A DNA stretch of 64,000 nucleotides from Loxodes magnus (lineage: Eukaryota; Ciliophora; Karyorelictea; Loxodida; Loxodidae), in the NCBI GenBank assembly GCA_946699065.1, contig CAMPDV010001291.1, positions 53,919-117,918 on the forward strand. Direction: 5' to 3'. Positions within the stretch are counted from its first letter, which is position 1; each line of letters begins with the position of its first letter. Below, in pieces: positions 1 through 64,000 of this stretch. The notes under the pieces were generated by a model, which saw nothing but the letters and a program-made list of their open reading frames with translations, made no database searches and had not been told where the DNA came from. The position numbers were made by a program, and so were the translations under genes.

Positions 1-3000
1 AACACTAGTGTGACCACTCATGGTCTTACAGGTACCTGTCTTGACGTCCCATAGTCTCACCGTCTAATCTCCACTTCCCGATACGATGAACTCTGAATCA
101 CTGGATATAGCCACAGCATATACCAAATTGGTGTGACCACTCATGGTCTTACAGGTACCTGTCTTGACGTCCCATAGTCTCACCGTCTAATCTCCACTTC
201 CCGATACGATGAACTCTGAATCACTGGATATAGCCACAGCATATACCAAATTGGTGTGACCACTCATGGTCTTACAGGTACCTGTCTTGACGTCCCATAG
301 TCTCACCGTCTAATCTCCACTTCCCGATACGATGAACTCTGAATCACTGGATATAGCCACAGCAGATACATAACTAGTGTGACCACTCATGGTCTTACAG
401 GTACCTGTCTTGACGTCCCATAGTCTCACCGTATAATCATGACTTCCCGATACGATGAACTCTGAATCACTGGATATAGCCACAGCATATACCTAATTTG
501 TGTGACCACTCATGGTCTTACAGGTACCTGTCTTGACGTCCCATAGTCTCACCGTATAATCATAACTTCCCGATACGATGAACTCTGAATCACTGGATAT
601 AGCCACAGCAGATACATAACTAGTGTGACCACTCATGGTCTTACAGGTACCTGTCTTGACGTCCCATAGTCTCACCGTATAATCATAACTTCCCGATACG
701 ATGAACTCTGAATCACTGGATATAGCCACAGATCATACACAACTAGTGTGACCACTCATGGTCTTACAGGTACCTGTCTTGACGTCCCATAGTCTCAAAG
801 TCTAATCTCCACTTCCCGATACGATGAACTCTGAATCACTGGATATAGCCACAGCAGATACATAACTAGTGTGACCACTCATGGTCTTACAGGTACCTGT
901 CTTGACGTCCCATAGTCTCACCGTATAATCTCCACTTCCCGATACGATGAACTCTGAATCACTGGATATAGCCTCGGCATTTACATAATGTGTGTGACCA
1001 CTCATGGTCTTACAGGTACCTGTCTTGACGTCCCATAGTCTCACCGTATAATCATAACTTCCCGATACGATGAACTCTGAATCACTGGATATAGCCACAG
1101 ATCATACACAACTAGTGTGACCACTCATGGTCTTACAGGTACCTGTCTTGACGTCCCATAGTCTCAAAGTCTAATCTCCACTTCCCGATACGATGAACTC
1201 TGAATCACTGGATATAGCCACAGCAGATACATAACTAGTGTGACCACTCATGGTCTTACAGGTACCTGTCTTGACGTCCCATAGTCTCACCGTATAATCT
1301 CCACTTCCCGATACGATGAACTCTGAATCACTGGATATAGCCTCGGCATTTACATAACTAGTGTGACCACTCATGGTCTTACAGGTACCTGTCTTGACGT
1401 CCCATAGTCTCACCGTCTAATCTCCACTTCCCGATACGATGAACTCTGAATCACTGGATATAGCCACAGCATATACAACACTAGTGTGACCACTCATGGT
1501 CTTACAGGTACCTGTCTTGACGTCCCATAGTCTCACCGTCTAATCTCCACTTCCCGATACGATGAACTCTGAATCACTGGATATAGCCACAGCATATACC
1601 AAATTGGTGTGACCACTCATGGTCTTACAGGTACCTGTCTTGACGTCCCATAGTCTCACCGTCTAATCTCCACTTCCCGATACGATGAACTCTGAACCAC
1701 TGGATATAGCCACAGCAGATACATGACTAGTGTGACCACTCATGGTCTTACAGGTACCTGTCTTGACGTCCCATAGTCTCACCGTCTAATCATGACTTCC
1801 CGATACGATGAACTCTGAATCACTGGATATAGCCACAGCAGATACAACACTAGTGTGACCACTCATGGTCTTACAGGTACCTGTCTTGACGTCCCATAGT
1901 CTCACCGTCTAATCTCCACTTCCCGATACGATGAACTCTGAATCACTGGATATAGCCACAGCATATACCAAATTGGTGTGACCACTCATGGTCTTACAGG
2001 TACCTGTCTTGACGTCCCATAGTCTCACCGTCTAATCTCCACTTCCCGATACGATGAACTCTGAATCACTGGATATAGCCACAGCATATACCAAATTGGT
2101 GTGACCACTCATGGTCTTACAGGTACCTGTCTTGACGTCCCATAGTCTCACCGTCTAATCTCCACTTCCCGATACGATGAACTCTGAATCACTGGATATA
2201 GCCACAGCAGATACATAACTAGTGTGACCACTCATGGTCTTACAGGTACCTGTCTTGACGTCCCATAGTCTCACCGTATAATCATGACTTCCCGATACGA
2301 TGAACTCTGAATCACTGGATATAGCCACAGCATATACCTAATTTGTGTGACCACTCATGGTCTTACAGGTACCTGTCTTGACGTCCCATAGTCTCACCGT
2401 ATAATCATAACTTCCCGATACGATGAACTCTGAATCACTGGATATAGCCACAGCAGATACATAACTAGTGTGACCACTCATGGTCTTACAGGTACCTGTC
2501 TTGACGTCCCATAGTCTCACCGTATAATCATAACTTCCCGATACGATGAACTCTGAATCACTGGATATAGCCACAGATCATACACAACTAGTGTGACCAC
2601 TCATGGTCTTACAGGTACCTGTCTTGACGTCCCATAGTCTCAAAGTCTAATCTCCACTTCCCGATACGATGAACTCTGAATCACTGGATATAGCCACAGC
2701 AGATACATAACTAGTGTGACCACTCATGGTCTTACAGGTACCTGTCTTGACGTCCCATAGTCTCACCGTATAATCTCCACTTCCCGATACGATGAACTCT
2801 GAATCACTGGATATAGCCACAGCAGATACATAACTAGTGTGACCACTCATGGTCTTACAGGTACCTGTCTTGACGTCCCATAGTCTCACCGTATAATCAT
2901 AACTTCCCGATACGATGAACTCTGAATCACTGGATATAGCCACAGCAGATACATGATGAGTGTGACCACTCATGGTCTTACAGGTACCTGTCTTGACGTC

Positions 3001-6000
3001 CCATAGTCTCACCGTCTAATCATAACTTCCCGATACGATGAACTCTGAATCACTGGATATAGCCACAGCAGATACATGATGAGTGTGACCACTCATGGTC
3101 TTACAGGTACCTGTCTTGACGTCCCATAGTCTCACCGTCTAATCTCCACTTCCCGATACGATGAACTCTGAATCACTGGATATAGCCACAGCAGATACAT
3201 AACTAGTGTGACCACTCATGGTCTTACAGGTACCTGTCTTGACGTCCCATAGTCTCACCGTATAATCATAACTTCCCGATACGATGAACTCTGAATCACT
3301 GGATATAGCCACAGCATATACCTAATTTGTGTGACCACTCATGGTCTTACAGGTACCTGTCTTGACGTCCCATAGTCTCACCGTATAATCATAACTTCCC
3401 GATACGATGAACTCTGAATCACTGGATATAGCCACAGCAGATACATAACTAGTGTGACCACTCATGGTCTTACAGGTACCTGTCTTGACGTCCCATAGTC
3501 TCACCGTCTAATCTCCACTTCCCGATACGATGAACTCTGAATCACTGGATATAGCCACAGCATATACATAACTAGTGTGACCACTCATGGTCTTACAGGT
3601 ACCTGTCTTGACGTCCCATAGTCTCACCGTCTAATCATGACTTCCCGATACGATGAACTCTGAATCACTGGATATAGCCACAGCATATACAACACTAGTG
3701 TGACCACTCATGGTCTTACAGGTACCTGTCTTGACGTCCCATAGTCTCACCGTCTAATCATGACTTCCCGATACGATGAACTCTGAATCACTGGATATAG
3801 CCACAGCATATACAGAACTAGTGTGACCACTCATGGTCTTACAGGTACCTGTCTTGACGTCCCATAGTCTCACCGTCTAATCATGACTTCCCGATACGAT
3901 GAACTCTGAATCACTGGATATAGCCACAGCATATACAGAACTAGTGTGACCACTCATGGTCTTACAGGTACCTGTCTTGACGTCCCATAGTCTCAAAGTC
4001 TAATCTCCACTTCCCGATACGATGAACTCTGAATCACTGGATATAGCCACAGCAGATACATAACTAGTGTGACCACTCATGGTCTTACAGGTACCTGTCT
4101 TGACGTCCCATAGTCTCACCGTCTAATCATGACTTCCCGATACGATGAACTCTGAATCACTGGATATAGCCACAGATCATACATAACTAGTGTGACCACT
4201 CATGGTCTTACAGGTACCTGTCTTGACGTACCATAGTCTCACCGTCTAATCTCCACTTCCCGATACGATGAACTCTGAATCACTGGATATAGCCACAGCA
4301 GATACATGATGAGTGTGACCACTCATGGTCTTACAGGTACCTGTCTTGACGTCCCATAGTCTCACCGTATAATCATAACTTCCCGATACGATGAACTCTG
4401 AATCACTGGATATAGCCACAGCATATACCAAATTGGTGTGACCACTCATGGTCTTACAGGTACCTGTCTTGACGTCCCATAGTCTCACCGTCTAATCATG
4501 ACTTCCCGATACGATGAACTCTGAATCACTGGATATAGCCACAGATCATACACAACTAGTGTGACCACTCATGGTCTTACAGGTACCTGTCTTGACGTCC
4601 CATAGTCTCACCGTATAATCTACACTTCCCGATACGATGAACTCTGAATCACTGGATATAGCCACAGCATATACCAAATTGGTGTGACCACTCATGGTCT
4701 TACAGGTACCTGTCTTGACGTCCCATAGTCTCACCGTCTAATCATGACTTCCCGATACGATGAACTCTGAATCACTGGATATAGCCACAGCATATACAAC
4801 ACTAGTGTGACCACTCATGGTCTTACAGGTACCTGTCTTGACGTCCCATAGTCTCACCGTATAATCATAACTTCCCGATACGATGAACTCTGAATCACTG
4901 GATATAGCCACAGATCATACATAACTAGTGTGACCACTCATGGTCTTACAGGTACCTGTCTTGACGTCCCATAGTCTCACCGTCTAATCATGACTTCCCG
5001 ATACGATGAACTCTGAATCACTGGATATAGCCACAGCAGATACATGATGAGTGTGACCACTCATGGTCTTACAGGTACCTGTCTTGACGTCCCATAGTCT
5101 CACCGTATAATCATAACTTCCCGATACGATGAACTCTGAATCACTGGATATAGCCACAGCAGATACATGATGAGTGTGACCACTCATGGTCTTACAGGTA
5201 CCTGTCTTGACGTCCCATAGTCTCACCGTCTAATCTCCACTTCCCGATACGATGAACTCTGAATCACTGGATATAGCCACAGATCATACACAACTAGTGT
5301 GACCACTCATGGTCTTACAGGTACCTGTCTTGACGTCCCATAGTCTCACCGTATAATCTACACTTCCCGATACGATGAACTCTGAATCACTGGATATAGC
5401 CACAGCAGATACCTAATTTGTGTGACCACTCATGGTCTTACAGGTACCTGTCTTGACGTCCCATAGTCTCACCGTTTTATCTGCCCTTCCCGATACGATG
5501 AACTCTGAATCACTGGATATAGCCACAGCATATACCTAATTTGTGTGACCACTCATGGTCTTACAGGTACCTGTCTTGACGTCCCATAGTCTCACCGTCT
5601 AATCATGACTTCCCGATACGATGAACTCTGAATCACTGGATATAGCCACAGCATATACATAACTAGTGTGACCACTCATGGTCTTACAGGTACCTGTCTT
5701 GACGTCCCATAGTCTCACCGTTTTATCTGCCCTTCCCGATACGATGAACTCTGAATCACTGGATATAGCCACAGCAGATACATAACTAGTGTGACCACTC
5801 ATGGTCTTACAGGTACCTGTCTTGACGTCCCATAGTCTCACCGTCTAATCTCCACTTCCCGATACGATGAACTCTGAATCACTGGATATAGCCACAGCAG
5901 ATACATGATGAGTGTGACCACTCATGGTCTTACAGGTACCTGTCTTGACGTCCCATAGTCTCACCGTATAATCATAACTTCCCGATACGATGAACTCTGA

Positions 6001-30000: not shown

Positions 30001-33000
30001 CACAGCATATACCAAATTGGTGTGACCACTCATGGTCTTACAGGTACCTGTCTTGACGTCCCATAGTCTCACCGTCTAATCATGACTTCCCGATACGATG
30101 AACTCTGAATCACTGGATATAGCCACAGCATATACATAACTAGTGTGACCACTCATGGTCTTACAGGTACCTGTCTTGACGTCCCATAGTCTCACCGTAT
30201 AATCATAACTTCCCGATACGATGAACTCTGAATCACTGGATATAGCCACAGCATATACCTAATTTGTGTGACCACTCATGGTCTTACAGGTACCTGTCTT
30301 GACGTCCCATAGTCTCACCGTATAATCATAACTTCCCGATACGATGAACTCTGAATCACTGGATATAGCCACAGCAGATACCTAATTTGTGTGACCACTC
30401 ATGGTCTTACAGGTACCTGTCTTGACGTCCCATAGTCTCACCGTATAATCATAACTTCCCGATACGATGAACTCTGAATCACTGGATATAGCCACAGCAG
30501 ATACATAACTAGTGTGACCACTCATGGTCTTACAGGTACCTGTCTTGACGTTCCATAGTCTCACCGTCTCATCACTACTTCCCGATACGATGAACTCTGA
30601 ATCACTGGATATAGCCACAGCATATACATAACTAGTGTGACCACTCATGGTCTTACAGGTACCTGTCTTGACGTCCCATAGTCTCACCGTCTAATCTCCA
30701 CTTCCCGATACGATGAACTCTGAATCACTGGATATAGCCACAGCATATACCAAATTGGTGTGACCACTCATGGTCTTACAGGTACCTGTCTTGACGTCCC
30801 ATAGTCTCACAGTCTAATCTCCACTTCCCGATACGATGAACTCTGAATCACTGGATATAGCCTCGGCATTTACATAATGTGTGTGACCACTCATGGTCTT
30901 ACAGGTACCTGTCTTGACGTCCCATAGTCTCACCGTCTAATCTCCACTTCCCGATACGATGAACTCTGAATCACTGGATATAGCCACAGCAGATACATAA
31001 CTAGTGTGACCACTCATGGTCTTACAGGTACCTGTCTTGACGTCCCATAGTCTCACCGTCTAATCATAACTTCCCGATACGATGAACTCTGAATCACTGG
31101 ATATAGCCACAGCATATACCAAATTGGTGTGACCACTCATGGTCTTACAGGTACCTGTCTTGACGTCCCATAGTCTCACCGTCTAATCATGACTTCCCGA
31201 TACGATGAACTCTGAATCACTGGATATAGCCACAGCAGATACATGATGAGTGTGACCACTCATGGTCTTACAGGTACCTGTCTTGACGTCCCATAGTCTC
31301 ACCGTATAATCATAACTTCCCGATACGATGAACTCTGAATCACTGGATATAGCCACAGATCATACATAACTAGTGTGACCACTCATGGTCTTACAGGTAC
31401 CTGTCTTGACGTCCCATAGTCTCACCGTCTAATCTCCACTTCCCGATACGATGAACTCTGAATCACTGGATATAGCCACAGCAGATACATAACTAGTGTG
31501 ACCACTCATGGTCTTACAGGTACCTGTCTTGACGTCCCATAGTCTCACCGTCTAATCATGACTTCCCGATACGATGAACTCTGAATCACTGGATATAGCC
31601 ACAGCATATACATAACTAGTGTGACCACTCATGGTCTTACAGGTACCTGTCTTGACGTCCCATAGTCTCACCGTATAATCATAACTTCCCGATACGATGA
31701 ACTCTGAATCACTGGATATAGCCACAGCATATACCTAATTTGTGTGACCACTCATGGTCTTACAGGTACCTGTCTTGACGTCCCATAGTCTCACCGTCTA
31801 ATCATAACTTCCCGATACGATGAACTCTGAATCACTGGATATAGCCACAGATCATACATAACTAGTGTGACCACTCATGGTCTTACAGGTACCTGTCTTG
31901 ACGTCCCATAGTCTCACCGTCTAATCATGACTTCCCGATACGATGAACTCTGAATCACTGGATATAGCCACAGCATATACATAACTAGTGTGACCACTCA
32001 TGGTCTTACAGGTACCTGTCTTGACGTCCCATAGTCTCACCGTCTAATCTCCACTTCCCGATACGATGAACTCTGAATCACTGGATATAGCCACAGATCA
32101 TACATAACTAGTGTGACCACTCATGGTCTTACAGGTACCTGTCTTGACGTCCCATAGTCTCACCGTCTAATCATAACTTCCCGATACGATGAACTCTGAA
32201 TCACTGGATATAGCCACAGCATATACCAAATTGGTGTGACCACTCATGGTCTTACAGGTACCTGTCTTGACGTCCCATAGTCTCACCGTATAATCATAAC
32301 TTCCCGATACGATGAACTCTGAATCACTGGATATAGCCACAGCATATACCTAATTTGTGTGACCACTCATGGTCTTACAGGTACCTGTCTTGACGTCCCA
32401 TAGTCTCACCGTCTAATCTCCACTTCCCGATACGATGAACTCTGAATCACTGGATATAGCCACAGATCATACATAACTAGTGTGACCACTCATGGTCTTA
32501 CAGGTACCTGTCTTGACGTCCCATAGTCTCACCGTCTAATCATAACTTCCCGATACGATGAACTCTGAATCACTGGATATAGCCACAGCATATACCAAAT
32601 TGGTGTGACCACTCATGGTCTTACAGGTACCTGTCTTGACGTCCCATAGTCTCACCGTATAATCATAACTTCCCGATACGATGAACTCTGAATCACTGGA
32701 TATAGCCACAGCATATACCTAATTTGTGTGACCACTCATGGTCTTACAGGTACCTGTCTTGACGTCCCATAGTCTCACCGTCTAATCTCCACTTCCCGAT
32801 ACGATGAACTCTGAATCACTGGATATAGCCACAGCAGATACATGATGAGTGTGACCACTCATGGTCTTACAGGTACCTGTCTTGACGTCCCATAGTCTCA
32901 CCGTATAATCTCCACTTCCCGATACGATGAACTCTGAATCACTGGATATAGCCACAGCATATACATAATGTGTGTGACCACTCATGGTCTTACAGGTACC

Positions 33001-36000: not shown

Positions 36001-39000
36001 GATGAACTCTGAATCACTGGATATAGCCACAGCATATACAACACTAGTGTGACCACTCATGGTCTTACAGGTACCTGTCTTGACGTCCCATAGTCTCACC
36101 GTCTAATCTCCACTTCCCGATACGATGAACTCTGAATCACTGGATATAGCCACAGATCATACATAACTAGTGTGACCACTCATGGTCTTACAGGTACCTG
36201 TCTTGACGTCCCATAGTCTCACCGTCTAATCATGACTTCCCGATACGATGAACTCTGAATCACTGGATATAGCCACAGCATATACCAAATTGGTGTGACC
36301 ACTCATGGTCTTACAGGTACCTGTCTTGACGTCCCATAGTCTCACAGTCTAATCTCCACTTCCCGATACGATGAACTCTGAATCACTGGATATAGCCTCG
36401 GCATTTACATAACTAGTGTGACCACTCATGGTCTTACAGGTACCTGTCTTGACGTCCCATAGTCTCACCGTCTAATCATGACTTCCCGATACGATGAACT
36501 CTGAATCACTGGATATAGCCACAGCAGATACATGACTAGTGTGACCACTCATGGTCTTACAGGTACCTGTCTTGACGTCCCATAGTCTCACCGTATAATC
36601 TCCACTTCCCGATACGATGAACTCTGAATCACTGGATATAGCCACAGCATATACCAAATTGGTGTGACCACTCATGGTCTTACAGGTACCTGTCTTGACG
36701 TCCCATAGTCTCACCGTATAATCTACACTTCCCGATACGATGAACTCTGAATCACTGGATATAGCCACAGCAGATACACAACTAGTGTGACCACTCATGG
36801 TCTTACAGGTACCTGTCTTGACGTCCCATAGTCTCACCGTCTAATCTCCACTTCCCGATACGATGAACTCTGAATCACTGGATATAGCCACAGCAGATAC
36901 ATAACTAGTGTGACCACTCATGGTCTTACAGGTACCTGTCTTGACGTCCCATAGTCTCACCGTATAATCATAACTTCCCGATACGATGAACTCTGAATCA
37001 CTGGATATAGCCACAGCATATACCAAATTGGTGTGACCACTCATGGTCTTACAGGTACCTGTCTTGACGTCCCATAGTCTCACCGTATAATCATAACTTC
37101 ACGATACGATGAACTCTGAATCACTGGATATAGCCACAGCATATACATAACTAGTGTGACCACTCATGGTCTTACAGGTACCTGTCTTGACGTCCCATAG
37201 TCTCACCGTATAATCATAACTTCCCGATACGATGAACTCTGAATCACTGGATATAGCCACAGCATATACCAAATTGGTGTGACCACTCATGGTCTTACAG
37301 GTACCTGTCTTGACGTCCCATAGTCTCACCGTATAATCATAACTTCCCGATACGATGAACTCTGAATCACTGGATATAGCCACAGCAGATACACAACTAG
37401 TGTGACCACTCATGGTCTTACAGGTACCTGTCTTGACGTCCCATAGTCTCACCGTCTCATCATAACTTCCCGATACGATGAACTCTGAATCACTGGATAT
37501 TGCCACAGCATATACATAACTAGTGTGACCACTCATGGTCTTACAGGTACCTGTCTTGACGTCCCATAGTCTCACCGTCATATCTCCACTTCCCGATACG
37601 ATGAACTCTGAATCACTGGATATAAACACAGATAATAAAGTATCTGTGGTACCACTCATGGTCTTACAGGTACCTGTCTTGACGTCCCATAGTCTCACCG
37701 TCTAATCATAACTTCCCGATACGATGAACTCTGAATCACTGGATATAGCCACAGCATATACCAAATTGGTGTGACCACTCATGGTCTTACAGGTACCTGT
37801 CTTGACGTCCCATAGTCTCACCGTCTAATCATGACTTCCCGATACGATGAACTCTGAATCACTGGATATAGCCACAGCATATACAACACTAGTGTGACCA
37901 CTCATGGTCTTACAGGTACCTGTCTTGACGTCCCATAGTCTCACCGTTTTATCTGCCCTTCCCGATACGATGAACTCTGAATCACTGGATATAGCCACAG
38001 CATATACAACACTAGTGTGACCACTCATGGTCTTACAGGTACCTGTCTTGACGTCCCATAGTCTCACCGTCTAATCATGACTTCCCGATACGATGAACTC
38101 TGAATCACTGGATATAGCCACAGCAGATACCTAATGTGTGTGACCACTCATGGTCTTACAGGTACCTGTCTTGACGTCCCATAGTCTCACCGTCTAATCA
38201 TAACTTCCCGATACGATGAACTCTGAATCACTGGATATAGCCACAGCATATACATAACTAGTGTGACCACTCATGGTCTTACAGGTACCTGTCTTGACGT
38301 CCCATAGTCTCACCGTATAATCATAACTTCCCGATACGATGAACTCTGAATCACTGGATATAGCCACAGCATATACCAAATTGGTGTGACCACTCATGGT
38401 CTTACAGGTACCTGTCTTGACGTCCCATAGTCTCACCGTATAATCATAACTTCCCGATACGATGAACTCTGAATCACTGGATATAGCCACAGATCATACA
38501 CAACTAGTGTGACCACTCATGGTCTTACAGGTACCTGTCTTGACGTCCCATAGTCTCACAGTCTAATCTCCACTTCCCGATACGATGAACTCTGAATCAC
38601 TGGATATAGCCTCGGCATTTACATAATGTGTGTGACCACTCATGGTCTTACAGGTACCTGTCTTGACGTCCCATAGTCTCACCGTCTAATCATGACTTCC
38701 CGATACGATGAACTCAGAATCACTGGATATAGCCACAGCATATACAACACTAGTGTGACCACTCATGGTCTTACAGGTACCTGTCTTGACGTCCCATAGT
38801 CTCACCGTCTAATCATGACTTCCCGATACGATGAACTCTGAATCACTGGATATAGCCACAGCATATACAACACTAGTGTGACCACTCATGGTCTTACAGG
38901 TACCTGTCTTGACGTCCCATAGTCTCACCGTCTAATCTCCACTTCCCGATACGATGAACTCTGAATCACTGGATATAGCCACAGCAGATACATAACTAGT

Positions 39001-51000: not shown

Positions 51001-54000
51001 CGATACGATGAACTCTGAATCACTGGATATAGCCACAGCATATACAACACTAGTGTGACCACTCATGGTCTTACAGGTACCTGTCTTGACGTCCCATAGT
51101 CTCACCGTCTAATCATAACTTCCCGATACGATGAACTCTGAATCACTGGATATAGCCACAGCATATACATAACTAGTGTGACCACTCATGGTCTTACAGG
51201 TACCTGTCTTGACGTCCCATAGTCTCACCGTCTAATCATGACTTCCCGATACGATGAACTCTGAATCACTGGATATAGCCACAGCATATACAACACTAGT
51301 GTGACCACTCATGGTCTTACAGGTACCTGTCTTGACGTCCCATAGTCTCACCGTTTTATCTGCCCTTCCCGATACGATGAACTCTGAATCACTGGATATA
51401 GCCACAGCATATACAACACTAGTGTGACCACTCATGGTCTTACAGGTACCTGTCTTGACGTCCCATAGTCTCACCGTCTAATCATGACTTCCCGATACGA
51501 TGAACTCTGAATCACTGGATATAGCCACAGCATATACAACACTAGTGTGACCACTCATGGTCTTACAGGTACCTGTCTTGACGTCCCATAGTCTCACCGT
51601 CTAATCATGACTTCCCGATACGATGAACTCTGAATCACTGGATATAGCCACAGCAGATACACAACTAGTGTGACCACTCATGGTCTTACAGGTACCTGTC
51701 TTGACGTCCCATAGTCTCACCGTCTAATCATGACTTCCCGATACGATGAACTCTGAATCACTGGATATAGCCACAGCATATACCTAATTTGTGTGACCAC
51801 TCATGGTCTTACAGGTACCTGTCTTGACGTCCCATAGTCTCACCGTTTTATCTGCCCTTCCCGATACGATGAACTCTGAATCACTGGATATAGCCACAGC
51901 ATATACATGACTAGTGTGACCACTCATGGTCTTACAGGTACCTGTCTTGACGTCCCATAGTCTCACCGTATAATCATAACTTCCCGATACGATGAACTCT
52001 GAATCACTGGATATAGCCACAGCAGATACATGACTAGTGTGACCACTCATGGTCTTACAGGTACCTGTCTTGACGTCCCATAGTCTCACCGTCTAATCTC
52101 CACTTCCCGATACGATGAACTCTGAATCACTGGATATAGCCACAGCAGATACACAACTAGTGTGACCACTCATGGTCTTACAGGTACCTGTCTTGACGTC
52201 CCATAGTCTCACCGTATAATCATAACTTCACGATACGATGAACTCTGAATCACTGGATATAGCCACAGCAGATACATGACTAGTGTGACCACTCATGGTC
52301 TTACAGGTACCTGTCTTGACGTCCCATAGTCTCACCGTATAATCTACACTTCCCGATACGATGAACTCTGAATCACTGGATATAGCCACAGCAGATACAT
52401 GACTAGTGTGACCACTCATGGTCTTACAGGTACCTGTCTTGACGTCCCATAGTCTCACCGTATAATCTACACTTCCCGATACGATGAACTCTGAATCACT
52501 GGATATAGCCACAGCAGATACACAACTAGTGTGACCACTCATGGTCTTACAGGTACCTGTCTTGACGTCCCATAGTCTCACCGTATAATCATAACTTCCC
52601 GATACGATGAACTCTGAATCACTGGATATAGCCACAGCAGATACACAACTAGTGTGACCACTCATGGTCTTACAGGTACCTGTCTTGACGTCCCATAGTC
52701 TCACCGTCTAATCTCCACTTCCCGATACGATGAACTCTGAATCACTGGATATAGCCACAGCAGATACACAACTAGTGTGACCACTCATGGTCTTACAGGT
52801 ACCTGTCTTGACGTCCCATAGTCTCACCGTATAATCATAACTTCACGATACGATGAACTCTGAATCACTGGATATAGCCACAGCAGATACATGACTAGTG
52901 TGACCACTCATGGTCTTACAGGTACCTGTCTTGACGTCCCATAGTCTCACCGTATAATCTGCCCTTCCCGATACGATGAACTCTGAATCACTGGATATAG
53001 CCACAGCAGATACCTAATTTGTGTGACCACTCATGGTCTTACAGGTACCTGTCTTGACGTCCCATAGTCTCACCGTATAATCATAACTTCCCGATACGAT
53101 GAACTCTGAATCACTGGATATAGCCACAGATCATACATAACTAGTGTGACCACTCATGGTCTTACAGGTACCTGTCTTGACGTCCCATAGTCTCACCGTC
53201 TAATCATGACTTCCCGATACGATGAACTCTGAATCACTGGATATAGCCACAGCAGATACATAACTAGTGTGACCACTCATGGTCTTACAGGTACCTGTCT
53301 TGACGTCCCATAGTCTCACCGTCTAATCATAACTTCCCGATACGATGAACTCTGAATCACTGGATATAGCCACAGCATATACCAAATTGGTGTGACCACT
53401 CATGGTCTTACAGGTACCTGTCTTGACGTCCCATAGTCTCACCGTATAATCTCCACTTCCCGATACGATGAACTCTGAATCACTGGATATAGCCACAGCA
53501 GATACCTAATTTGTGTGACCACTCATGGTCTTACAGGTACCTGTCTTGACGTCCCATAGTCTCACCGTATAATCATAACTTCCCGATACGATGAACTCTG
53601 AATCACTGGATATAGCCACAGATCATACATAACTAGTGTGACCACTCATGGTCTTACAGGTACCTGTCTTGACGTCCCATAGTCTCACCGTCTAATCATG
53701 ACTTCCCGATACGATGAACTCTGAATCACTGGATATAGCCACAGCAGATACATAACTAGTGTGACCACTCATGGTCTTACAGGTACCTGTCTTGACGTCC
53801 CATAGTCTCACAGTCTAATCTCCACTTCCCGATACGATGAACTCTGAATCACTGGATATAGCCACAGCATATACATAACTAGTGTGACCACTCATGGTCT
53901 TACAGGTACCTGTCTTGACGTCCCATAGTCTCACCGTCTAATCATGACTTCCCGATACGATGAACTCTGAATCACTGGATATAGCCACAGCATATACAAC

Positions 54001-57000: not shown

Positions 57001-60000
57001 TAGTCTCACCGTATAATCATGACTTCCCGATACGATGAACTCTGAATCACTGGATATAGCCACAGCATATACCTAATTTGTGTGACCACTCATGGTCTTA
57101 CAGGTACCTGTCTTGACGTCCCATAGTCTCACCGTATAATCATAACTTCCCGATACGATGAACTCTGAATCACTGGATATAGCCACAGCAGATACATAAC
57201 TAGTGTGACCACTCATGGTCTTACAGGTACCTGTCTTGACGTCCCATAGTCTCACCGTATAATCATAACTTCCCGATACGATGAACTCTGAATCACTGGA
57301 TATAGCCACAGATCATACACAACTAGTGTGACCACTCATGGTCTTACAGGTACCTGTCTTGACGTCCCATAGTCTCAAAGTCTAATCTCCACTTCCCGAT
57401 ACGATGAACTCTGAATCACTGGATATAGCCACAGCAGATACATAACTAGTGTGACCACTCATGGTCTTACAGGTACCTGTCTTGACGTCCCATAGTCTCA
57501 CCGTCTAATCTCCACTTCCCGATACGATGAACTCTGAATCACTGGATATAGCCACAGCAGATACATAACTAGTGTGACCACTCATGGTCTTACAGGTACC
57601 TGTCTTGACGTCCCATAGTCTCACCGTCTAATCATAACTTCCCGATACGATGAACTCTGAATCACTGGATATAGCCACAGCATATACATAACTAGTGTGA
57701 CCACTCATGGTCTTACAGGTACCTGTCTTGACGTCCCATAGTCTCACAGTCTAATCTCCACTTCCCGATACGATGAACTCTGAATCACTGGATATAGCCA
57801 CAGCATATACCTAATTTGTGTGACCACTCATGGTCTTACAGGTACCTGTCTTGACGTCCCATAGTCTCACCGTATAATCATAACTTCCCGATACGATGAA
57901 CTCTGAATCACTGGATATAGCCACAGCAGATACATAACTAGTGTGACCACTCATGGTCTTACAGGTACCTGTCTTGACGTCCCATAGTCTCACCGTATAA
58001 TCATAACTTCCCGATACGATGAACTCTGAATCACTGGATATAGCCACAGATCATACACAACTAGTGTGACCACTCATGGTCTTACAGGTACCTGTCTTGA
58101 CGTCCCATAGTCTCAAAGTCTAATCTCCACTTCCCGATACGATGAACTCTGAATCACTGGATATAGCCACAGCAGATACATAACTAGTGTGACCACTCAT
58201 GGTCTTACAGGTACCTGTCTTGACGTCCCATAGTCTCACCGTATAATCATGACTTCCCGATACGATGAACTCTGAATCACTGGATATAGCCACAGCATAT
58301 ACCAAATTGGTGTGACCACTCATGGTCTTACAGGTACCTGTCTTGACGTCCCATAGTCTCACCGTATTATCATAACTTCCCGATACTATGAACTCTGAAT
58401 CACTGGATATAGCCACAGCATATACCTAATTTGTGTGACCACTCATGGTCTTACAGGTACCTGTCTTGACGTCCCATAGTCTCACCGTTTTATCTGCCCT
58501 TCCCGATACGATGAACTCTGAATCACTGGATATAGCCACAGCAGATACCTAATTTGTGTGACCACTCATGGTCTTACAGGTACCTGTCTTGACGTCCCAT
58601 AGTCTCACCGTTTTATCTGCCCTTCCCGATACGATGAACTCTGAATCACTGGATATAGCCACAGCATATACATAACTAGTGTGACCACTCATGGTCTTAC
58701 AGGTACCTGTCTTGACGTCCCATAGTCTCACCGTATAATCATGACTTCCCGATACGATGAACTCTGAATCACTGGATATAGCCACAGCATATACATAACT
58801 AGTGTGACCACTCATGGTCTTACAGGTACCTGTCTTGACGTCCCATAGTCTCACCGTTTTATCTGCCCTTCCCGATACGATGAACTCTGAATCACTGGAT
58901 ATAGCCACAGCATATACCTAATTTGTGTGACCACTCATGGTCTTACAGGTACCTGTCTTGACGTCCCATAGTCTCACCGTATAATCATAACTTCCCGATA
59001 CGATGAACTCTGAATCACTGGATATAGCCACAGCATATACAACACTAGTGTGACCACTCATGGTCTTACAGGTACCTGTCTTGACGTCCCATAGTCTCAC
59101 CGTCTAATCATGACTTCCCGATACGATGAACTCTGAATCACTGGATATAGCCACAGCATATACAACACTAGTGTGACCACTCATGGTCTTACAGGTACCT
59201 GTCTTGACGTCCCATAGTCTCACCGTTTTATCTGCCCTTCCCGATACGATGAACTCTGAATCACTGGATATAGCCACAGCAGATACCTAATTTGTGTGAC
59301 CACTCATGGTCTTACAGGTACCTGTCTTGACGTCCCATAGTCTCACCGTTTTATCTGCCCTTCCCGATACGATGAACTCTGAATCACTGGATATAGCCAC
59401 AGATCATACATAACTAGTGTGACCACTCATGGTCTTACAGGTACCTGTCTTGACGTCCCATAGTCTCACCGTCTAATCATGACTTCCCGATACGATGAAC
59501 TCTGAATCACTGGATATAGCCACAGCAGATACATAACTAGTGTGACCACTCATGGTCTTACAGGTACCTGTCTTGACGTCCCATAGTCTCACCGTCTAAT
59601 CATGACTTCCCGATACGATGAACTCTGAATCACTGGATATAGCCACAGCATATACATAACTAGTGTGACCACTCATGGTCTTACAGGTACCTGTCTTGAC
59701 GTCCCATAGTCTCACCGTCTAATCATGACTTCCCGATACGATGAACTCTGAATCACTGGATATAGCCACAGCATATACAACACTAGTGTGACCACTCATG
59801 GTCTTACAGGTACCTGTCTTGACGTCCCATAGTCTCACCGTCTAATCATAACTTCCCGATACGATGAACTCTGAATCACTGGATATAGCCACAGCATATA
59901 CATAACTAGTGTGACCACTCATGGTCTTACAGGTACCTGTCTTGACGTCCCATAGTCTCACCGTCTAATCATGACTTCCCGATACGATGAACTCTGAATC

Positions 60001-61677
60001 ACTGGATATAGCCACAGCATATACAACACTAGTGTGACCACTCATGGTCTTACAGGTACCTGTCTTGACGTCCCATAGTCTCACCGTTTTATCTGCCCTT
60101 CCCGATACGATGAACTCTGAATCACTGGATATAGCCACAGCAGATACCTAATTTGTGTGACCACTCATGGTCTTACAGGTACCTGTCTTGACGTCCCATA
60201 GTCTCACCGTATAATCATAACTTCCCGATACGATGAACTCTGAATCACTGGATATAGCCACAGATCATACATAACTAGTGTGACCACTCATGGTCTTACA
60301 GGTACCTGTCTTGACGTCCCATAGTCTCACCGTCTAATCATGACTTCCCGATACGATGAACTCTGAATCACTGGATATAGCCACAGCAGATACATAACTA
60401 GTGTGACCACTCATGGTCTTACAGGTACCTGTCTTGACGTCCCATAGTCTCACCGTCTAATCATGACTTCCCGATACGATGAACTCTGAATCACTGGATA
60501 TAGCCACAGCATATACATAACTAGTGTGACCACTCATGGTCTTACAGGTACCTGTCTTGACGTCCCATAGTCTCACCGTCTAATCATAACTTCCCGATAC
60601 GATGAACTCTGAATCACTGGATATAGCCACAGCATATACATAACTAGTGTGACCACTCATGGTCTTACAGGTACCTGTCTTGACGTCCCATAGTCTCACC
60701 GTCTAATCATGACTTCCCGATACGATGAACTCTGAATCACTGGATATAGCCACAGCATATACAACACTAGTGTGACCACTCATGGTCTTACAGGTACCTG
60801 TCTTGACGTCCCATAGTCTCACCGTTTTATCTGCCCTTCCCGATACGATGAACTCTGAATCACTGGATATAGCCACAGCATATACCTAATTTGTGTGACC
60901 ACTCATGGTCTTACAGGTACCTGTCTTGACGTCCCATAGTCTCACCGTATAATCATAACTTCCCGATACGATGAACTCTGAATCACTGGATATAGCCACA
61001 GCATATACCTAATTTGTGTGACCACTCATGGTCTTACAGGTACCTGTCTTGACGTCCCATAGTCTCACCGTTTTATCTGCCCTTCCCGATACGATGAACT
61101 CTGAATCACTGGATATAGCCACAGCAGATACATAACTAGTGTGACCACTCATGGTCTTACAGGTACCTGTCTTGACGTCCCATAGTCTCACCGTCTAATC
61201 TCCACTTCCCGATACGATGAACTCTGAATCACTGGATATAGCCACAGCAGATACATAACTAGTGTGACCACTCATGGTCTTACAGGTACCTGTCTTGACG
61301 TCCCATAGTCTCACCGTATAATCATAACTTCCCGATACGATGAACTCTGAATCACTGGATATAGCCACAGATCATACACAACTAGTGTGACCACTCATGG
61401 TCTTACAGGTACCTGTCTTGACGTCCCATAGTCTCACCGTCTAATCATAACTTCCCGATACGATGAACTCTGAATCACTGGATATAGCCACAGCAGATAC
61501 CTAATTTGTGTGACCACTCATGGTCTTACAGGTACCTGTCTTGACGTCCCATAGTCTCACCGTATAATCATGACTTCCCGATACGATGAACTCTGAATCA
61601 CTGGATATAGCCACAGCATATACCTAATTTGTGTGACCACTCATGGTCTTACAGGTACCTGTCTTGACGTCCCATAG
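1..61677 (-). CDS. Giant WD40 repeat protein, internal fragment (about 501 blades), open only if UAG and UGA are sense codons
   Basis: Read on the minus strand, this stretch keeps one frame for about 20,560 codons as a 41-residue WD40 unit repeated head to tail. Each unit carries the Gly-His pair (G41-H1), Asp23, Thr25 and the Trp29-Asp30 dipeptide, which are the family's structural residues. WD40 blades form beta-propellers that act as protein-interaction scaffolds; no enzymatic, membrane, signal or linker segment is visible here. Under the standard code the frame is broken by TAG at unit codons 24 and 4 and by TGA at codon 6, with TGA at codon 20 in three units. I saw no in-frame TAA. Short open pieces begin at internal GTG codons of the repeat, so they are not separate genes. 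Both termini lie outside this segment: the low-coordinate end runs out of the window and the upstream part continues past the frameshift near 61,680. The alternative is a decayed gene turned satellite. The WD40 identity is certain; expression as one protein is an inference. Confidence 0.62.
28..39. repeat. 12-bp perfect palindrome present in essentially every unit (representative copy)
   Basis: ACAGGTACCTGT is its own reverse complement and recurs once per 123 bp across the window (a few units lose it to the Thr33Lys change, for example near 12,584). It encodes the T-G-T-C part of the blade. Immediately before it, GACCA CTCA TGGTC (12-25) can form a 5-bp stem with a 4-base loop, and GACGTC just after it is another palindrome. 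A cluster of self-complementary sites per unit may promote slippage or exchange, but it may also be only a by-product of the codons. Confidence 0.8.
64..66 (-). other. In-frame TAG at WD40 unit codon 24 (first of hundreds; representative)
   Basis: The minus strand reads GAT TAG ACG GTG AGA CTA TGG, giving D-TAG-T-V-R-L-W. At the same codon other units have TAT (Tyr), AAA (Lys), AAT (Asn), ATG (Met), GAG (Glu) or TTA (Leu). By eye about half of all units carry TAG here, with every kind of neighbouring residue 22. In WD40 families this D-x-T-V slot is usually polar (Lys, Gln, Asn, Arg). Gln is therefore the most natural meaning if TAG is read as sense; that assignment is an inference. Confidence 0.6.
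493..495 (-). other. In-frame TAG at WD40 unit codon 4 (representative)
   Basis: The minus strand reads CAC ACA AAT TAG GTA TAT, giving H-T-N-TAG-V-Y. The paired sense form is CAC ACC AAT TTG GTA (H-T-N-L-V). A second context is CAC ACA CAT TAG GTA, for example near 16,369 and 38,132. The Thr2 codon differs in linkage (ACA with TAG, ACC with TTG, ACT with AGT-TAT), so these are distinct unit lineages and not simple point mutants of each other. Confidence 0.6.
733..735 (-). other. In-frame TGA at WD40 unit codon 6 (representative)
   Basis: The minus strand reads GTA TGA TCT GTG GCT, giving V-TGA-S-V-A. Most units read GTA TCT GCT GTG or GTA TAT GCT GTG. TGA always travels with Ser at codon 7 instead of Ala. 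Other Ser7 units have TAT (25,701), TTA (22,388) or TCA (about 39,970) in the same slot. V-W-S-V, V-Y-S-V and V-L-S-V are all common WD40 strand openings, so Trp is the most natural meaning of TGA here. Confidence 0.6.
1846..2818 (-). repeat. Higher-order block A, copy 2
   Basis: Second copy of block A, same unit order as 1-973, offset 1,845 bp. It ends where the Ala6-type unit replaces the Asn6-Ala7-Glu8 unit of copy 1. Confidence 0.85.
3939..5721 (-). repeat. Higher-order block B, copy 1 (22-unit spacing)
   Basis: This block matches 6,645-8,427 at an offset of 2,706 bp (22 x 123). Visible differences are few. Position 4,230 carries A for C only here, changing the Trp-Asp dipeptide to Trp-Tyr. 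Residue 22 near 5,358-5,362 is Val (TCTACACTT) here and Tyr in copy 2. Confidence 0.85.
4228..4230 (-). other. Asp30 to Tyr in the signature Trp-Asp dipeptide of one unit
   Basis: The plus strand has GACGTACC in place of GACGTCCC, so the minus-strand codon is TAC instead of GAC. This is the only W-Y unit I noticed. Its duplicated partner at 6,934-6,936 is normal. Confidence 0.85.
6645..8427 (-). repeat. Higher-order block B, copy 2
   Basis: Second copy of block B at +2,706 bp. It retains the normal Trp-Asp codon at the place where copy 1 has Trp-Tyr, so the copy 1 change is younger than the duplication or was lost here by conversion. Confidence 0.85.
11571..13161 (-). repeat. Higher-order block C0, copy 1 (22-unit spacing)
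   Basis: This block matches 14,277-15,867 at +2,706 bp. It includes a run of four units with Ser4 (plus-strand CAGAACTAG at about 11,930-12,305). It also carries three linked private changes: T at 12,502 (silent), TTTCTT near 12,584 (Thr33Lys) and CTCAGAATC near 12,640 (silent). A change at 12,066 (GTGAACACTC) occurs only in this copy and alters Gly41 to Val. Confidence 0.85.
13165..16477 (-). repeat. Higher-order block C, copy 1 of a 27-unit tandem duplication
   Basis: This block matches 16,486-19,798 at +3,321 bp (27 x 123). The copies abut, so this is a direct tandem duplication of 27 blades. The copies differ in two places: units near 13,849-13,905 versus 17,170-17,226, and units near 15,439-15,520 versus 18,760-18,841. 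These look like conversion from other units. Confidence 0.85.
14277..15867 (-). repeat. Higher-order block C0, copy 2
   Basis: Copy of 11,571-13,161 with the same three linked private changes, now at 15,208, about 15,290 and about 15,346. It is also contained in the 3,321-bp tandem duplication that starts at 13,165. Confidence 0.85.
16486..19798 (-). repeat. Higher-order block C, copy 2
   Basis: Second copy of the 27-unit tandem block. The silent marker T occurs at 18,529 and a second time at 18,775, two units on. In copy 1 the corresponding second unit lacks it, so a unit was overwritten by its neighbour after the duplication. Confidence 0.85.
21205..22446 (-). repeat. Island of divergent WD40 units
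   Basis: About ten consecutive units here carry alleles that are rare or absent elsewhere. These are Met24 (plus-strand CATATC), Glu24 (CTCATC), Leu24 (TTAAATC), Asn30 in place of Asp30 (GACGTTCC), the silent GCA codon for Ala9 (TATTGCC), and an H-T-D-Y-V-L-S-V unit near 22,390. One unit at 22,001-22,034 has the start [10 protein letters not shown] and so lacks the His of the Gly-His pair. The set looks closer to a generic WD40 array and may be a less homogenised, older part. Confidence 0.8.
23736..24786 (-). repeat. Higher-order block D', copy 1 (34-unit spacing)
   Basis: This block matches 27,918-28,968 at +4,182 bp (34 x 123) with the same order of variant units, including the rare Asn4 unit (CATTACTAG) and the Asn24 unit (GTATTATC). 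Confidence 0.8.
25526..26755 (-). repeat. Higher-order block D, copy 1 of a 10-unit tandem duplication
   Basis: This block matches the next 1,230 bp (10 x 123) unit for unit. The marker is the otherwise rare CACAGAATATACC (Tyr6-Ser7) at about 25,697-25,709, which recurs at +1,230 and again at +3,936. A Glu24/Asn30 unit near 26,612-26,640 is also shared. Confidence 0.85.
26756..28039 (-). repeat. Higher-order block D, copy 2
   Basis: Direct tandem copy of the preceding ten units, with the Tyr6-Ser7 marker at about 26,927-26,939. The match persists slightly past one period, as expected for a clean tandem duplication. Confidence 0.85.
27918..28968 (-). repeat. Higher-order block D', copy 2
   Basis: Second copy of 23,736-24,786 at +4,182 bp. 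The match ends at 28,969, where TAG replaces the Tyr24 codon of copy 1. Confidence 0.8.
29401..30752 (-). repeat. Higher-order block D, copy 3 (dispersed)
   Basis: Third copy, +2,706 bp from copy 2, with the same marker at about 29,633-29,645 and the same Glu24/Asn30 unit near 30,548-30,576. It is separated from copy 2 by block D' copy 2. Confidence 0.85.
32041..32778 (-). repeat. Three-unit (369-bp) tandem duplication
   Basis: The unit order TAG24/TGA6, TAG24/Leu4, Tyr24/TAG4 at 32,041-32,409 is repeated exactly at 32,410-32,778. A 369-bp spacing also appears at about 721-973 versus 1,090-1,342. Confidence 0.85.
37099..37101 (-). other. TGA replacing the invariant Gly20 codon (also at 52,228-52,230 and 52,843-52,845)
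   Basis: At these three places the plus strand has TTCACGATACG where all other units have TTCCCGATACG. On the minus strand this turns GTA TCG GGA into GTA TCG TGA. The last two sites are 615 bp (five units) apart and probably one event that was copied. If TGA means Trp, this puts a bulky residue at a conserved turn glycine, so these units argue mildly against strong constraint or against the Trp meaning. Confidence 0.85.
37420..37700 (-). repeat. Second patch of divergent units
   Basis: This patch contains Glu24 (GTCTCATC near 37,457), the silent TATTGCC codon, Met24 (CATATC near 37,580) and a [10 protein letters not shown] unit at 37,621-37,655. That last unit is the same form as at 22,001-22,034, about 15.6 kb (127 units) away. 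I saw this unit type only in these two places. Confidence 0.8.
38876..42621 (-). repeat. Higher-order block E, copy 1 (40-unit spacing)
   Basis: This block matches 43,796-47,541 at +4,920 bp (40 x 123), the longest shared block in the window. Shared markers are the Arg12-Tyr13 change at 40,441 and 40,810 and the silent TATG near 41,166. The copies differ in about three units at 39,790-40,090 and one unit near 41,450-41,530. Confidence 0.88.
40441..40446 (-). other. Ser12-Asp13 to Arg12-Tyr13 framework variant (also at 40,810, 45,361 and 45,730)
   Basis: The plus strand has GAATATCTGG in place of GAATCACTGG, so AGT GAT becomes AGA TAT on the minus strand. Two adjacent codons change together in the strand a-b turn. 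The four copies are explained by a 369-bp repeat inside the 4,920-bp duplication. Confidence 0.85.
43796..47541 (-). repeat. Higher-order block E, copy 2
   Basis: Second copy of block E, with the Arg12-Tyr13 marker at 45,361 and 45,730 and the silent TATG near 46,086. The few replaced units indicate patchy conversion after a recent 40-blade duplication. Confidence 0.88.
47182..49018 (-). repeat. Higher-order block F, copy 1 (17-unit spacing)
   Basis: This block matches 49,273-50,986. The offset is 2,091 bp (17 x 123) up to about 48,530 and 1,968 bp (16 x 123) from about 48,600 on. Copy 1 therefore has one unit (near 48,470-48,600) that copy 2 lacks. Confidence 0.85.
49273..50986 (-). repeat. 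Higher-order block F, copy 2 (one unit shorter)
   Basis: Second copy of block F, missing exactly one 123-bp unit relative to copy 1. This is a directly visible single-unit gain or loss and preserves the frame. Confidence 0.85.
52950..52990 (-). other. Recombinant unit: Arg21-Ala22 with Tyr24
   Basis: Residues 21-24 here read R-A-D-Y (plus strand GTATAATCTGCCC). Elsewhere Arg21-Ala22 is always paired with Lys24 (GTTTTATCTGCCC). The reciprocal form, His22 with Lys24, is near 10,148-10,162. These units show exchange between codons only six bases apart, or independent mutation. Confidence 0.75.
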
Positions 61678-64000
61678 TCCTCAAAGTCTAATCTCCACTT
61701 CCCGATACGATGAACTCTGAATCACTGGATATAGCCACAGCATATACCTAATTTGTGTGACCACTCATGGTCTTACAGGTACCTGTCTTGACGTCCCATA
61801 GTCTCACCGTTTTATCTGCCCTTCCCGATACGATGAACTCTGAATCACTGGATATAGCCACAGCAGATACCTAATTTGTGTGACCACTCATGGTCTTACA
61901 GGTACCTGTCTTGACGTCCCATAGTCTCACCGTCTAATCATGACTTCCCGATACGATGAACTCTGAATCACTGGATATAGCCACAGCATATACCTAATTT
62001 GTGTGACCACTCATGGTCTTACAGGTACCTGTCTTGACGTCCCATAGTCTCACCGTATAATCATAACTTCCCGATACGATGAACTCTGAATCACTGGATA
62101 TAGCCACAGCAGATACCTAATTTGTGTGACCACTCATGGTCTTACAGGTACCTGTCTTGACGTCCCATAGTCTCACCGTATAATCTCCACTTCCCGATAC
62201 GATGAACTCTGAATCACTGGATATAGCCACAGCATATACCAAATTGGTGTGACCACTCATGGTCTTACAGGTACCTGTCTTGACGTCCCATAGTCTCACC
62301 GTATAATCTCCACTTCCCGATACGATGAACTCTGAATCACTGGATATAGCCACAGCATATACCAAATTGGTGTGACCACTCATGGTCTTACAGGTACCTG
62401 TCTTGACGTCCCATAGTCTCACCGTCTAATCTCCACTTCCCGATACGATGAACTCTGAATCACTGGATATAGCCACAGCAGATACATGATGAGTGTGACC
62501 ACTCATGGTCTTACAGGTACCTGTCTTGACGTCCCATAGTCTCACCGTCTAATCTCCACTTCCCGATACGATGAACTCTGAATCACTGGATATAGCCACA
62601 GCAGATACATGACTAGTGTGACCACTCATGGTCTTACAGGTACCTGTCTTGACGTCCCATAGTCTCACCGTCTAATCATAACTTCCCGATACGATGAACT
62701 CTGAATCACTGGATATAGCCACAGCATATACATAACTAGTGTGACCACTCATGGTCTTACAGGTACCTGTCTTGACGTCCCATAGTCTCACCGTATAATC
62801 ATGACTTCCCGATACGATGAACTCTGAATCACTGGATATAGCCACAGCAGATACATAACTAGTGTGACCACTCATGGTCTTACAGGTACCTGTCTTGACG
62901 TCCCATAGTCTCACCGTCTAATCATGACTTCCCGATACGATGAACTCTGAATCACTGGATATAGCCACAGCATATACAACACTAGTGTGACCACTCATGG
63001 TCTTACAGGTACCTGTCTTGACGTCCCATAGTCTCACCGTATAATCATGACTTCCCGATACGATGAACTCTGAATCACTGGATATAGCCACAGCATATAC
63101 CTAATTTGTGTGACCACTCATGGTCTTACAGGTACCTGTCTTGACGTCCCATAGTCTCACCGTATAATCATGACTTCCCGATACGATGAACTCTGAATCA
63201 CTGGATATAGCCACAGCAGATACATAACTAGTGTGACCACTCATGGTCTTACAGGTACCTGTCTTGACGTCCCATAGTCTCACCGTCTAATCATGACTTC
63301 CCGATACGATGAACTCTGAATCACTGGATATAGCCACAGCATATACAACACTAGTGTGACCACTCATGGTCTTACAGGTACCTGTCTTGACGTCCCATAG
63401 TCTCACCGTATAATCATGACTTCCCGATACGATGAACTCTGAATCACTGGATATAGCCACAGCATATACATAACTAGTGTGACCACTCATGGTCTTACAG
63501 GTACCTGTCTTGACGTCCCATAGTCTCACCGTATAATCATGACTTCCCGATACGATGAACTCTGAATCACTGGATATAGCCACAGCAGATACATAACTAG
63601 TGTGACCACTCATGGTCTTACAGGTACCTGTCTTGACGTCCCATAGTCTCACCGTATAATCATAACTTCCCGATACGATGAACTCTGAATCACTGGATAT
63701 AGCCACAGCATATACATAACTAGTGTGACCACTCATGGTCTTACAGGTACCTGTCTTGACGTCCCATAGTCTCACCGTATAATCATGACTTCCCGATACG
63801 ATGAACTCTGAATCACTGGATATAGCCACAGCAGATACATAACTAGTGTGACCACTCATGGTCTTACAGGTACCTGTCTTGACGTCCCATAGTCTCACCG
63901 TCTAATCATGACTTCCCGATACGATGAACTCTGAATCACTGGATATAGCCACAGCATATACAACACTAGTGTGACCACTCATGGTCTTACAGGTACCTGT
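61649..64000 (-). CDS. Giant WD40 repeat protein, upstream fragment in the shifted frame
   Basis: This is the part of the same array that lies 5' of the single frameshift on the minus strand. It begins inside a blade at the window edge (first codons read T-G-T-C-K-T) and continues in frame for about 19 units. It has the same features as the rest of the array: invariant WD40 framework, TAG at unit codons 24 and 4, and no in-frame TAA before the shift. After the extra C at 61,679-61,680 the frame leaves the WD40 reading, passes through about ten unrelated codons and meets TAA at 61,649-61,651. If the extra base is a sequencing or assembly error, this fragment and the downstream one are a single CDS. 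If it is real and UAA is the working stop, the protein would end here and everything downstream would be untranslated. No start codon with upstream context is in the window. Confidence 0.55.
61679..61680 (-). other. Single-base insertion (extra C): only frameshift seen in the array
   Basis: The plus strand reads CATAGTCCTCAAAG where every comparable unit reads CATAGTCTCAAAG. Repeat-aligned open segments above and below this point differ by one base in phase (61,009-61,191 versus 62,117-62,422), confirming a +1 shift. It lies in a CC doublet, so an error is possible. One indel in 64 kb of repeat is striking if the array is not under frame constraint. Confidence 0.9.

Follow-up and report, generated by a model that had tools for sequence, protein, structure and literature searches.

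Candidate reassignment of UAG and UGA in a 64-kb tandem array of WD40 blades

Introduction

Near-identical WD40 units in concerted evolution are described from the NWD/HNWD genes of Podospora anserina (HET-E, HET-D, and HET-R; PMC1805685), and the present study concerns a similar array, which carries hundreds of in-frame TAG and TGA codons and fills a 64,000-nucleotide stretch of contig CAMPDV010001291.1 (assembly GCA_946699065.1, positions 53,919 to 117,918; this whole stretch is called the window). In the NWD units of Podospora, codons 7, 9, 25, and 27 are reported to be under diversifying selection, paired around the constrained codons 8 and 26 and located atop the modelled propeller (PMC1805685). 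A propeller is said to need 6-7 units (PMC2873952), and stops in Podospora repeats have been described (PMC12222747, PMC2873952). Highly repetitive beta-propellers are reported as recent amplifications from one blade, some of them disrupted by stops or frameshifts and showing signs of decay (PMC9218822).

Nuclear codes with reassigned stops are equally documented. In Blastocrithidia, UAR is reported to encode Glu and UGA Trp, with UAA as the only terminator and a guanine plus cytosine (GC) content of the open reading frames of 38.7-46.4% (PMC12153298). All three stops are reported as reassigned in Condylostoma, Parduczia, and Amoebophrya (PMC4967479, PMC6394959, PMC12005148), UAG alone, with UAA still a stop, in phyllopharyngean ciliates, Iotanema, and a rhizarian (PMC11687900), and UAA and UAG are given different amino acids in one ciliate (PMC10553269). 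Both main readings of the array, reassignment and decay, have published precedent. Searches of an open-access library gave no paper on this array, nor one on any WD40 array in which an altered code turns stops into sense codons. Here, a reading of UAG and UGA as amino acids is favoured at a probability of about 0.57. It is preferred over a dead array because of the location and the frequency class of the stops, and not because of their number.

Results

Structure of the array

The window was found to be a single tandem array with a period of 123, 520.3 copies, and 95% matches (Tandem Repeats Finder, TRF).

4..64000, minus strand: WD40 blade array of 123-bp (41-residue) units, filling the window and reaching both of its ends (TRF and anchoring)

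Anchoring on one framework stretch gave 520 anchors with 519 complete units between them, 518 of 123 bp and one of 124 bp. The 518 units comprised 116 distinct sequences. The minus-strand reading of each unit is a 41-residue WD40 blade starting with GHT. When three unit types of the window that lack stops were joined into one protein, it reached 116.3 bits against the Pfam WD40 family PF00400 (cut-off 27, E 3.2e-34, three stretches), exceeding the gathering score.

In-frame stop codons

Stops were counted over the 518 units of 123 bp, so that the single longer unit and the incomplete units at either end of the window are not included. In the unit frame there were 420, namely TAG at codon 5 in 87 units (TAG5), TGA at codon 7 in 56 (TGA7), TAG at codon 25 in 274 (TAG25), and TGA at codon 21 in 3 (TGA21), and no TAA in any of the 518 units. 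A preliminary description of the window had reported hundreds of TAG and TGA codons without TAA, placed almost only at codons 24, 4, and 6 (25, 5, and 7 in the present numbering, which is higher by one), where sense alleles also vary, and in addition three framework units with GGA changed to TGA. All of this agrees with the counts. The following examples illustrate the alleles:

31627..32487, minus strand: seven-unit stretch with TAG5, TGA7, and TAG25 alleles; ten codons are TAG or TGA, and seven complete blades result if these are sense
32467..32469, minus strand: TGA at unit codon 7 (56 of 518 units; TCT always at codon 8)
32350..32352, minus strand: TAG at unit codon 5 (87 of 518 units)
32413..32415, minus strand: TAG at unit codon 25 (274 of 518 units)
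52843..52845, 52228-52230, and 37099-37101, minus strand: TGA at framework codon 21 in three units

No stop occurred in 145 units, one in 326, and two in 47, so that 373 of the 518 carried at least one. TAG25 is the commonest allele at its codon and holds the majority there. The five alternative frames of the window all contained more stops than the unit frame. Read with the standard code, the array has no stop-free stretch beyond 202 residues and no more than four stop-free complete units in succession, fewer than the 6-7 said to be required for a propeller; this was counted for reassignment. As a control, related blades were sought after stops had been replaced by X, and those with no more than 6 gaps were retained; one blade of the resulting 116, which came from 17 of 19 prokaryotic loci, contained a stop.

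Haplotypes and founder events

TAG5 was found after ACA-AAT or ACA-CAT, and TAG25 after CAT, GGA, or TAT at codon 23. TCT at codon 8 followed TGA7 in every case and was likewise present in the four units whose codon 7 is TTA or TCA. All six combinations of TAT, CAT, or GGA at codon 23 with TAT or TAG at codon 25 were present, and therefore either exchange over few bases or repeated mutation has taken place. The stops are not independent. They represent three frequent alleles copied through the array and one rare allele (TGA21), with a minimum of three common events and one rare event. TAG5 and TAG25 tended to exclude each other, TAG25 occurring in 20 of 87 TAG5 units vs 254 of the 431 others (Fisher P 7e-10), which may reflect copying history, units not being independent. 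TAG5 and TGA7 were never combined in one unit.

Because the stops stem from about three founder events, the absence of TAA is weak evidence. The probability of finding no TAA by chance is 0.125 with three independent events and 0.008 with seven. The absence is suggestive of UAA as a stop, and the earlier proposal that UAA is kept as a stop, which depends on these few events, is tentative.

Two classes of variation

Minor alleles with at least 8 copies among the 518 units numbered 22, of which 14 fell in codons 5, 7, 23, and 25 (P 1e-9 under uniform placement over 41 codons) and the other 8 in codons 3, 4, 8, 22, 26, and 27. Codon 5 had six of them, codons 23 and 25 three each, codons 3, 4, and 7 two each, and codons 8, 22, 26, and 27 one each. 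Variants of the framework, which comprises the other 31 codons, had at most 7 copies. Codons 6 and 24 lie between variable neighbours and were near-invariant, with the same codon in 516 and 518 of 518 units, respectively; two variable pairs were thus found around constrained codons, 5/7 around 6 and 23/25 around 24. In related bacterial blades, columns 5, 7, 23, and 25 were among the most variable (commonest residue 15-26%), and columns 4, 17, and 33 were similar (18-22%).

TAG5, TGA7, and TAG25 belong to the common class of alleles and TGA21 to the rare class. The three frequent stops behave like the sense alleles at the same codons. Of the 369 possible single-base changes in a unit, 19 make a stop, 8 of these at variable codons. 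For three stops at variable codons to become common before any framework change, a simple neutral model gave P 2e-5, and P 8e-4 when the first stop was taken as given, as the cause of death; both are illustrative figures, which assume uniform single-base mutation and a division into variable and framework codons made post hoc. At codons 4, 5, 7, 23, and 25, 32 codons carried 31 meanings, while about 6.5 redundant codons were expected (P 0.002-0.003, crude neutral simulation).

Amino acid meaning of UAG and UGA

A blade profile was built from 115 of 232 hits (114 distinct, all prokaryotic), those with more than 6 gaps being dropped. Trp was the commonest residue at column 7 (26%), and it stood there in 19 of the 55 blades with Ser at column 8, as in the TGA units. 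At column 5, Trp was likewise commonest with 21%, and Gln reached 8%. At column 25, Gln was commonest with 15% and Trp was absent from all 114 blades.

Residues were also scored with the Pfam WD40 model over three copies, with ten, nine, and eight residues tried at codons 25, 5, and 7, respectively. The bits were as follows:

Codon 25: G 122.2, K 120.3, R 120.0, Q 117.5, C 117.0, S 114.6, E 113.7, Y 110.4, W 107.7, L 107.4
Codon 5: G 118.7, E 118.5, Q 117.7, K 117.2, S 116.7, Y 116.6, R 116.5, W 114.5, L 110.7
Codon 7: Y 117.0, R 116.1, W 114.6, S 113.2, L 112.9, C 112.1, Q 111.1, G 107.5

Among the documented meanings of UAG that were tried, Gln came first over columns 25 and 5 together, followed by Glu, Ser, Tyr, and Leu, and among Trp, Cys, and Gly for UGA, Trp was best at codon 7. 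The proposed Gln-like UAG and Trp-like UGA are both plausible on these sequence comparisons, Glu standing close behind Gln for UAG. The variable columns do not settle the two meanings, and Gln and Trp would be the best of the documented meanings tried. Two possible assignments would make alleles silent. UGA read as Gly would silence TGA21; Gly was the lowest of eight residues at codon 7 in Pfam and the top residue for columns 7 and 21 together. With UAG read as Tyr, TAG and TAT would become synonyms at codons 5 and 25; Tyr was below Gln in Pfam at both codons and above Gln in the background-corrected profile.

Frameshift

The frame of the array is broken once, by the only unit of 124 bp.

61639..61762, minus strand: only 124-bp unit, with one extra base; first difference from an ordinary unit at 61679

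The 18 anchors upstream of the extra base and the 502 downstream differ in frame, and a translation continued from the upstream units hits a stop some ten codons past the insertion. The frame, described before as otherwise perfect over 64 kb, is therefore shifted at 61,679.

Relatives and further features

The nearest protein relatives found with a typed protein query were bacterial WD40 proteins, at 19 prokaryotic loci with 29-57% identity. The same query had no relatives in viral contigs. An alignment search showed that the viral contig L020 encodes WD40-like blades with 43% identity; two phage records reached about 35%, and one of them, Salicola phage MF360958.1 (about 35%, 14 places), encodes WD40-like blades. 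Exact framework DNA had 0 matches in viral contigs (40 bases) and in genome contigs (29 bases), and blastn of 2,001 bases of the window against phages gave no match.

The window, which consists of the array only, contained no transfer RNA, and no Rfam family reached its gathering score within it. Its GC content of about 45% is not diagnostic of the source. Traces of block duplication were seen as exact runs of 8-12 consecutive units that recur at offsets such as 22, 27, and 40 units. Unit identity by lag peaked at 22, 40, and 27 units, with no peak at 7 units.

Discussion

Proposed reading

The reassignment suggested in the preliminary description best fits the frequencies and positions of the alleles, although the hundreds of stops that it drew on come from three common alleles and one rare one. 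If it is correct, the array would encode, or have encoded until recently, a very long series of WD40 blades, and the nuclear code of its owner, probably a protist, would read UAG and UGA as amino acids, UGA perhaps as Trp and UAG perhaps as Gln or Glu. Concerted evolution, through exchange between units, would hold the framework uniform. By analogy with fungal non-self receptors, the four residues at codons 5, 7, 23, and 25 of each blade would lie on a binding face and would be diversified by selection, and UAG and UGA would supply further amino acid alleles at these positions. The array and the frequencies and positions of its alleles are direct observations, whereas translation, codon meaning, the kind of organism, and a role in recognition are inferred. 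A more specific form of the proposal appears doubtful. In it, UAA alone would terminate translation in a eukaryote that uses UAG and UGA as sense codons, and the array would encode a recognition protein with over 500 nearly identical WD40 blades (more than 21,000 residues), the recoded stops being a main source of its diversified binding residues.

Several results weigh against reassignment. All of the codon evidence comes from a single repeat family. The +1 frameshift breaks the frame under any code, and stop-free runs were no longer than in shuffled arrays. The 18 rare framework alleles (fewer than 11 copies in the 31 framework codons, three nonsynonymous alleles that differ at two bases being counted once) comprised 13 nonsynonymous, 4 synonymous, and 1 stop, where 73, 23, and 4% are expected without selection. 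An omega of 0.2 or less was rejected for them (P 0.002) and one of 0.5 was not (P 0.16). Common synonymous alleles occur at codons 3 and 26 (ACA 103, ACC 61, and ACT 31). The synonymy test weakened on wider sets of codons, with 5 redundant codons vs 8.6 expected at all ten variable codons (P 0.07) and 9 vs 13.4 at all 41 codons (P 0.08), so that an excess of amino acid changes stands out clearly at the core positions alone. Recent changes seem to be under weak constraint or none, while the common diversity seems shaped by the protein.

The meanings expected under reassignment meet similar objections. Over the two UAG columns together, Gly, Lys, and Arg scored above Gln in Pfam, and at the UGA column Tyr and Arg scored above Trp. 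In the blade profile, columns 5 and 25 combined gave Arg 0.37, Gln 0.18, and Gly 0.13, and after background correction Tyr came first for both codons, followed by Gln for UAG and by Trp for UGA at column 7. For UGA, columns 7 and 21 together gave Gly 0.36 vs Trp 0.02. TGA21 replaces Gly, and Trp stood at that column in 0 of 113 related blades. Furthermore, neither CAA nor CAG occurred in frame in the 518 units and TGG was found only at codon 30, which would be odd if Gln and Trp were wanted at the variable positions.

Alternative explanations

The alternative that survives best is a dead array, in which a WD40 gene of the standard code with diversified blades lost its function, its repeats multiplied in the manner of a satellite, and drift and exchange carried three nonsense alleles through them. 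We consider this possible, on a minority view. The frameshift, the neutral-looking rare framework changes, the spacing of stops that equals that of the shuffles, and the common synonymous alleles at codons 3 and 26 all fit it, and since 8 of 19 nonsense opportunities lie at variable codons anyway, three hits there have P 0.07 on their own. Decay also has its precedents, as disrupted repetitive propellers are documented (PMC9218822) and one het-d sequence of Podospora is reported with two stops in one repeat (PMC12222747). However, neutral spread should have lifted framework changes as well, and none of these exceeds 7 copies in 31 codons vs three common stops, a comparison based on the post hoc division of the codons. 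A dead array also has to accommodate TAG25 as the majority allele, combined with three partners at codon 23, next to a codon 24 that is invariant in 518 of 518 units.

A second possibility is contained in the favoured reading as a sub-case. All three stops may be reassigned, as in the code of karyorelicts, Condylostoma, and Amoebophrya, with TAA absent by chance. Such codes are documented (PMC4967479, PMC6394959, PMC12005148), and three founder events would leave the array without TAA at the P of 0.125 given above; this chance drops to 0.008, for seven events, if TAG originated repeatedly, on different backgrounds. The sub-case is held to be tentative, and rather unlikely to be the actual code.

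RNA editing is a further alternative. Adenosine-to-inosine editing turns UAG and UGA, with one A each, into UGG for Trp, while UAA would need two edits, which would account for the restriction to TAG and TGA. Related blades also have Trp more often than any other residue at columns 5 and 7, and editing of coding regions has been published for fungi (PMC7306014). Editing is disfavoured at column 25, the site of 274 of the 420 stops, where Trp was found in none of the 114 related blades and scored 9.8 bits below Gln (Pfam, three copies). As several hundred edited sites would be required in addition, editing is judged improbable.

Hypermutation such as repeat-induced point mutation (RIP), by which stops would derive from TGG or CAG codons, can draw on TAG and TGA each being one G-to-A change from TGG and on two NWD pseudogenes of Podospora reported as inactivated by RIP (PMC1805685), but it is the least credible explanation, as neither C-to-T changes at the 8 CpA sites of the framework nor G-to-A changes at its 7 TpG sites were seen in the 518 units, transversions made up 25 of the 35 distinct changes in the variable blocks, and codons 6 and 24 were skipped. 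Removal of the stops as introns was dropped, as they sit within otherwise conserved blades.

Implications

If UAG and UGA are read as amino acids, recoded stops would share in the diversifying selection on surface residues of a fast-diversifying repeat family, and one locus would offer hundreds of in-frame UAG and UGA sites at which their meaning can be read by proteomics. In tandem arrays, hundreds of stops can come from three or four events, and claims about absent codons therefore need counts of events and not of copies. The comparison of stop and sense alleles by frequency class allows decay and recoding to be weighed in other repeat genes as well.

Comparison with known systems

The variable pairs of the array have the same spacing as those reported for Podospora NWD units, at codons 5-6-7 and 23-24-25 here vs 7-8-9 and 25-26-27 there. 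This is a match of spacing only, and a correspondence of positions by an offset of two may be drawn from it. Active Podospora alleles are described with ten or eleven repeats (PMC12222747, PMC2873952), while at least 519 are present here, and in contrast to the Podospora receptors no HET or NACHT domain was found in the window, which holds repeats only. Repetitive beta-propellers resemble the array in their recently amplified and partly disrupted blades (PMC9218822). They are reported with 6 to 12 blades and isolated stops, whereas 373 of the 518 units here carry a stop at fixed codons.

Among the altered codes, the UAG-only systems share UAG as a sense codon and UAA as a stop, but that source counts UGA among the stops of the ciliates (PMC11687900). 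The codes of karyorelicts, Condylostoma, and Amoebophrya, of which the first two had been named as precedents, agree in reading in-frame UAG as Gln and UGA as Trp (PMC4967479, PMC6394959); UAA is also Gln there, while the array has no in-frame UAA, with few independent events behind this. They are less apt as precedents than Blastocrithidia, where UAA is the sole terminator. UAA is also a sense codon in Blastocrithidia, and UAG, reported as Glu there, would lie between Gln, Glu, and others in the array. Nevertheless, Blastocrithidia combines UAG and UGA as sense codons with termination at UAA, and its reported GC range spans the approximately 45% of the array.

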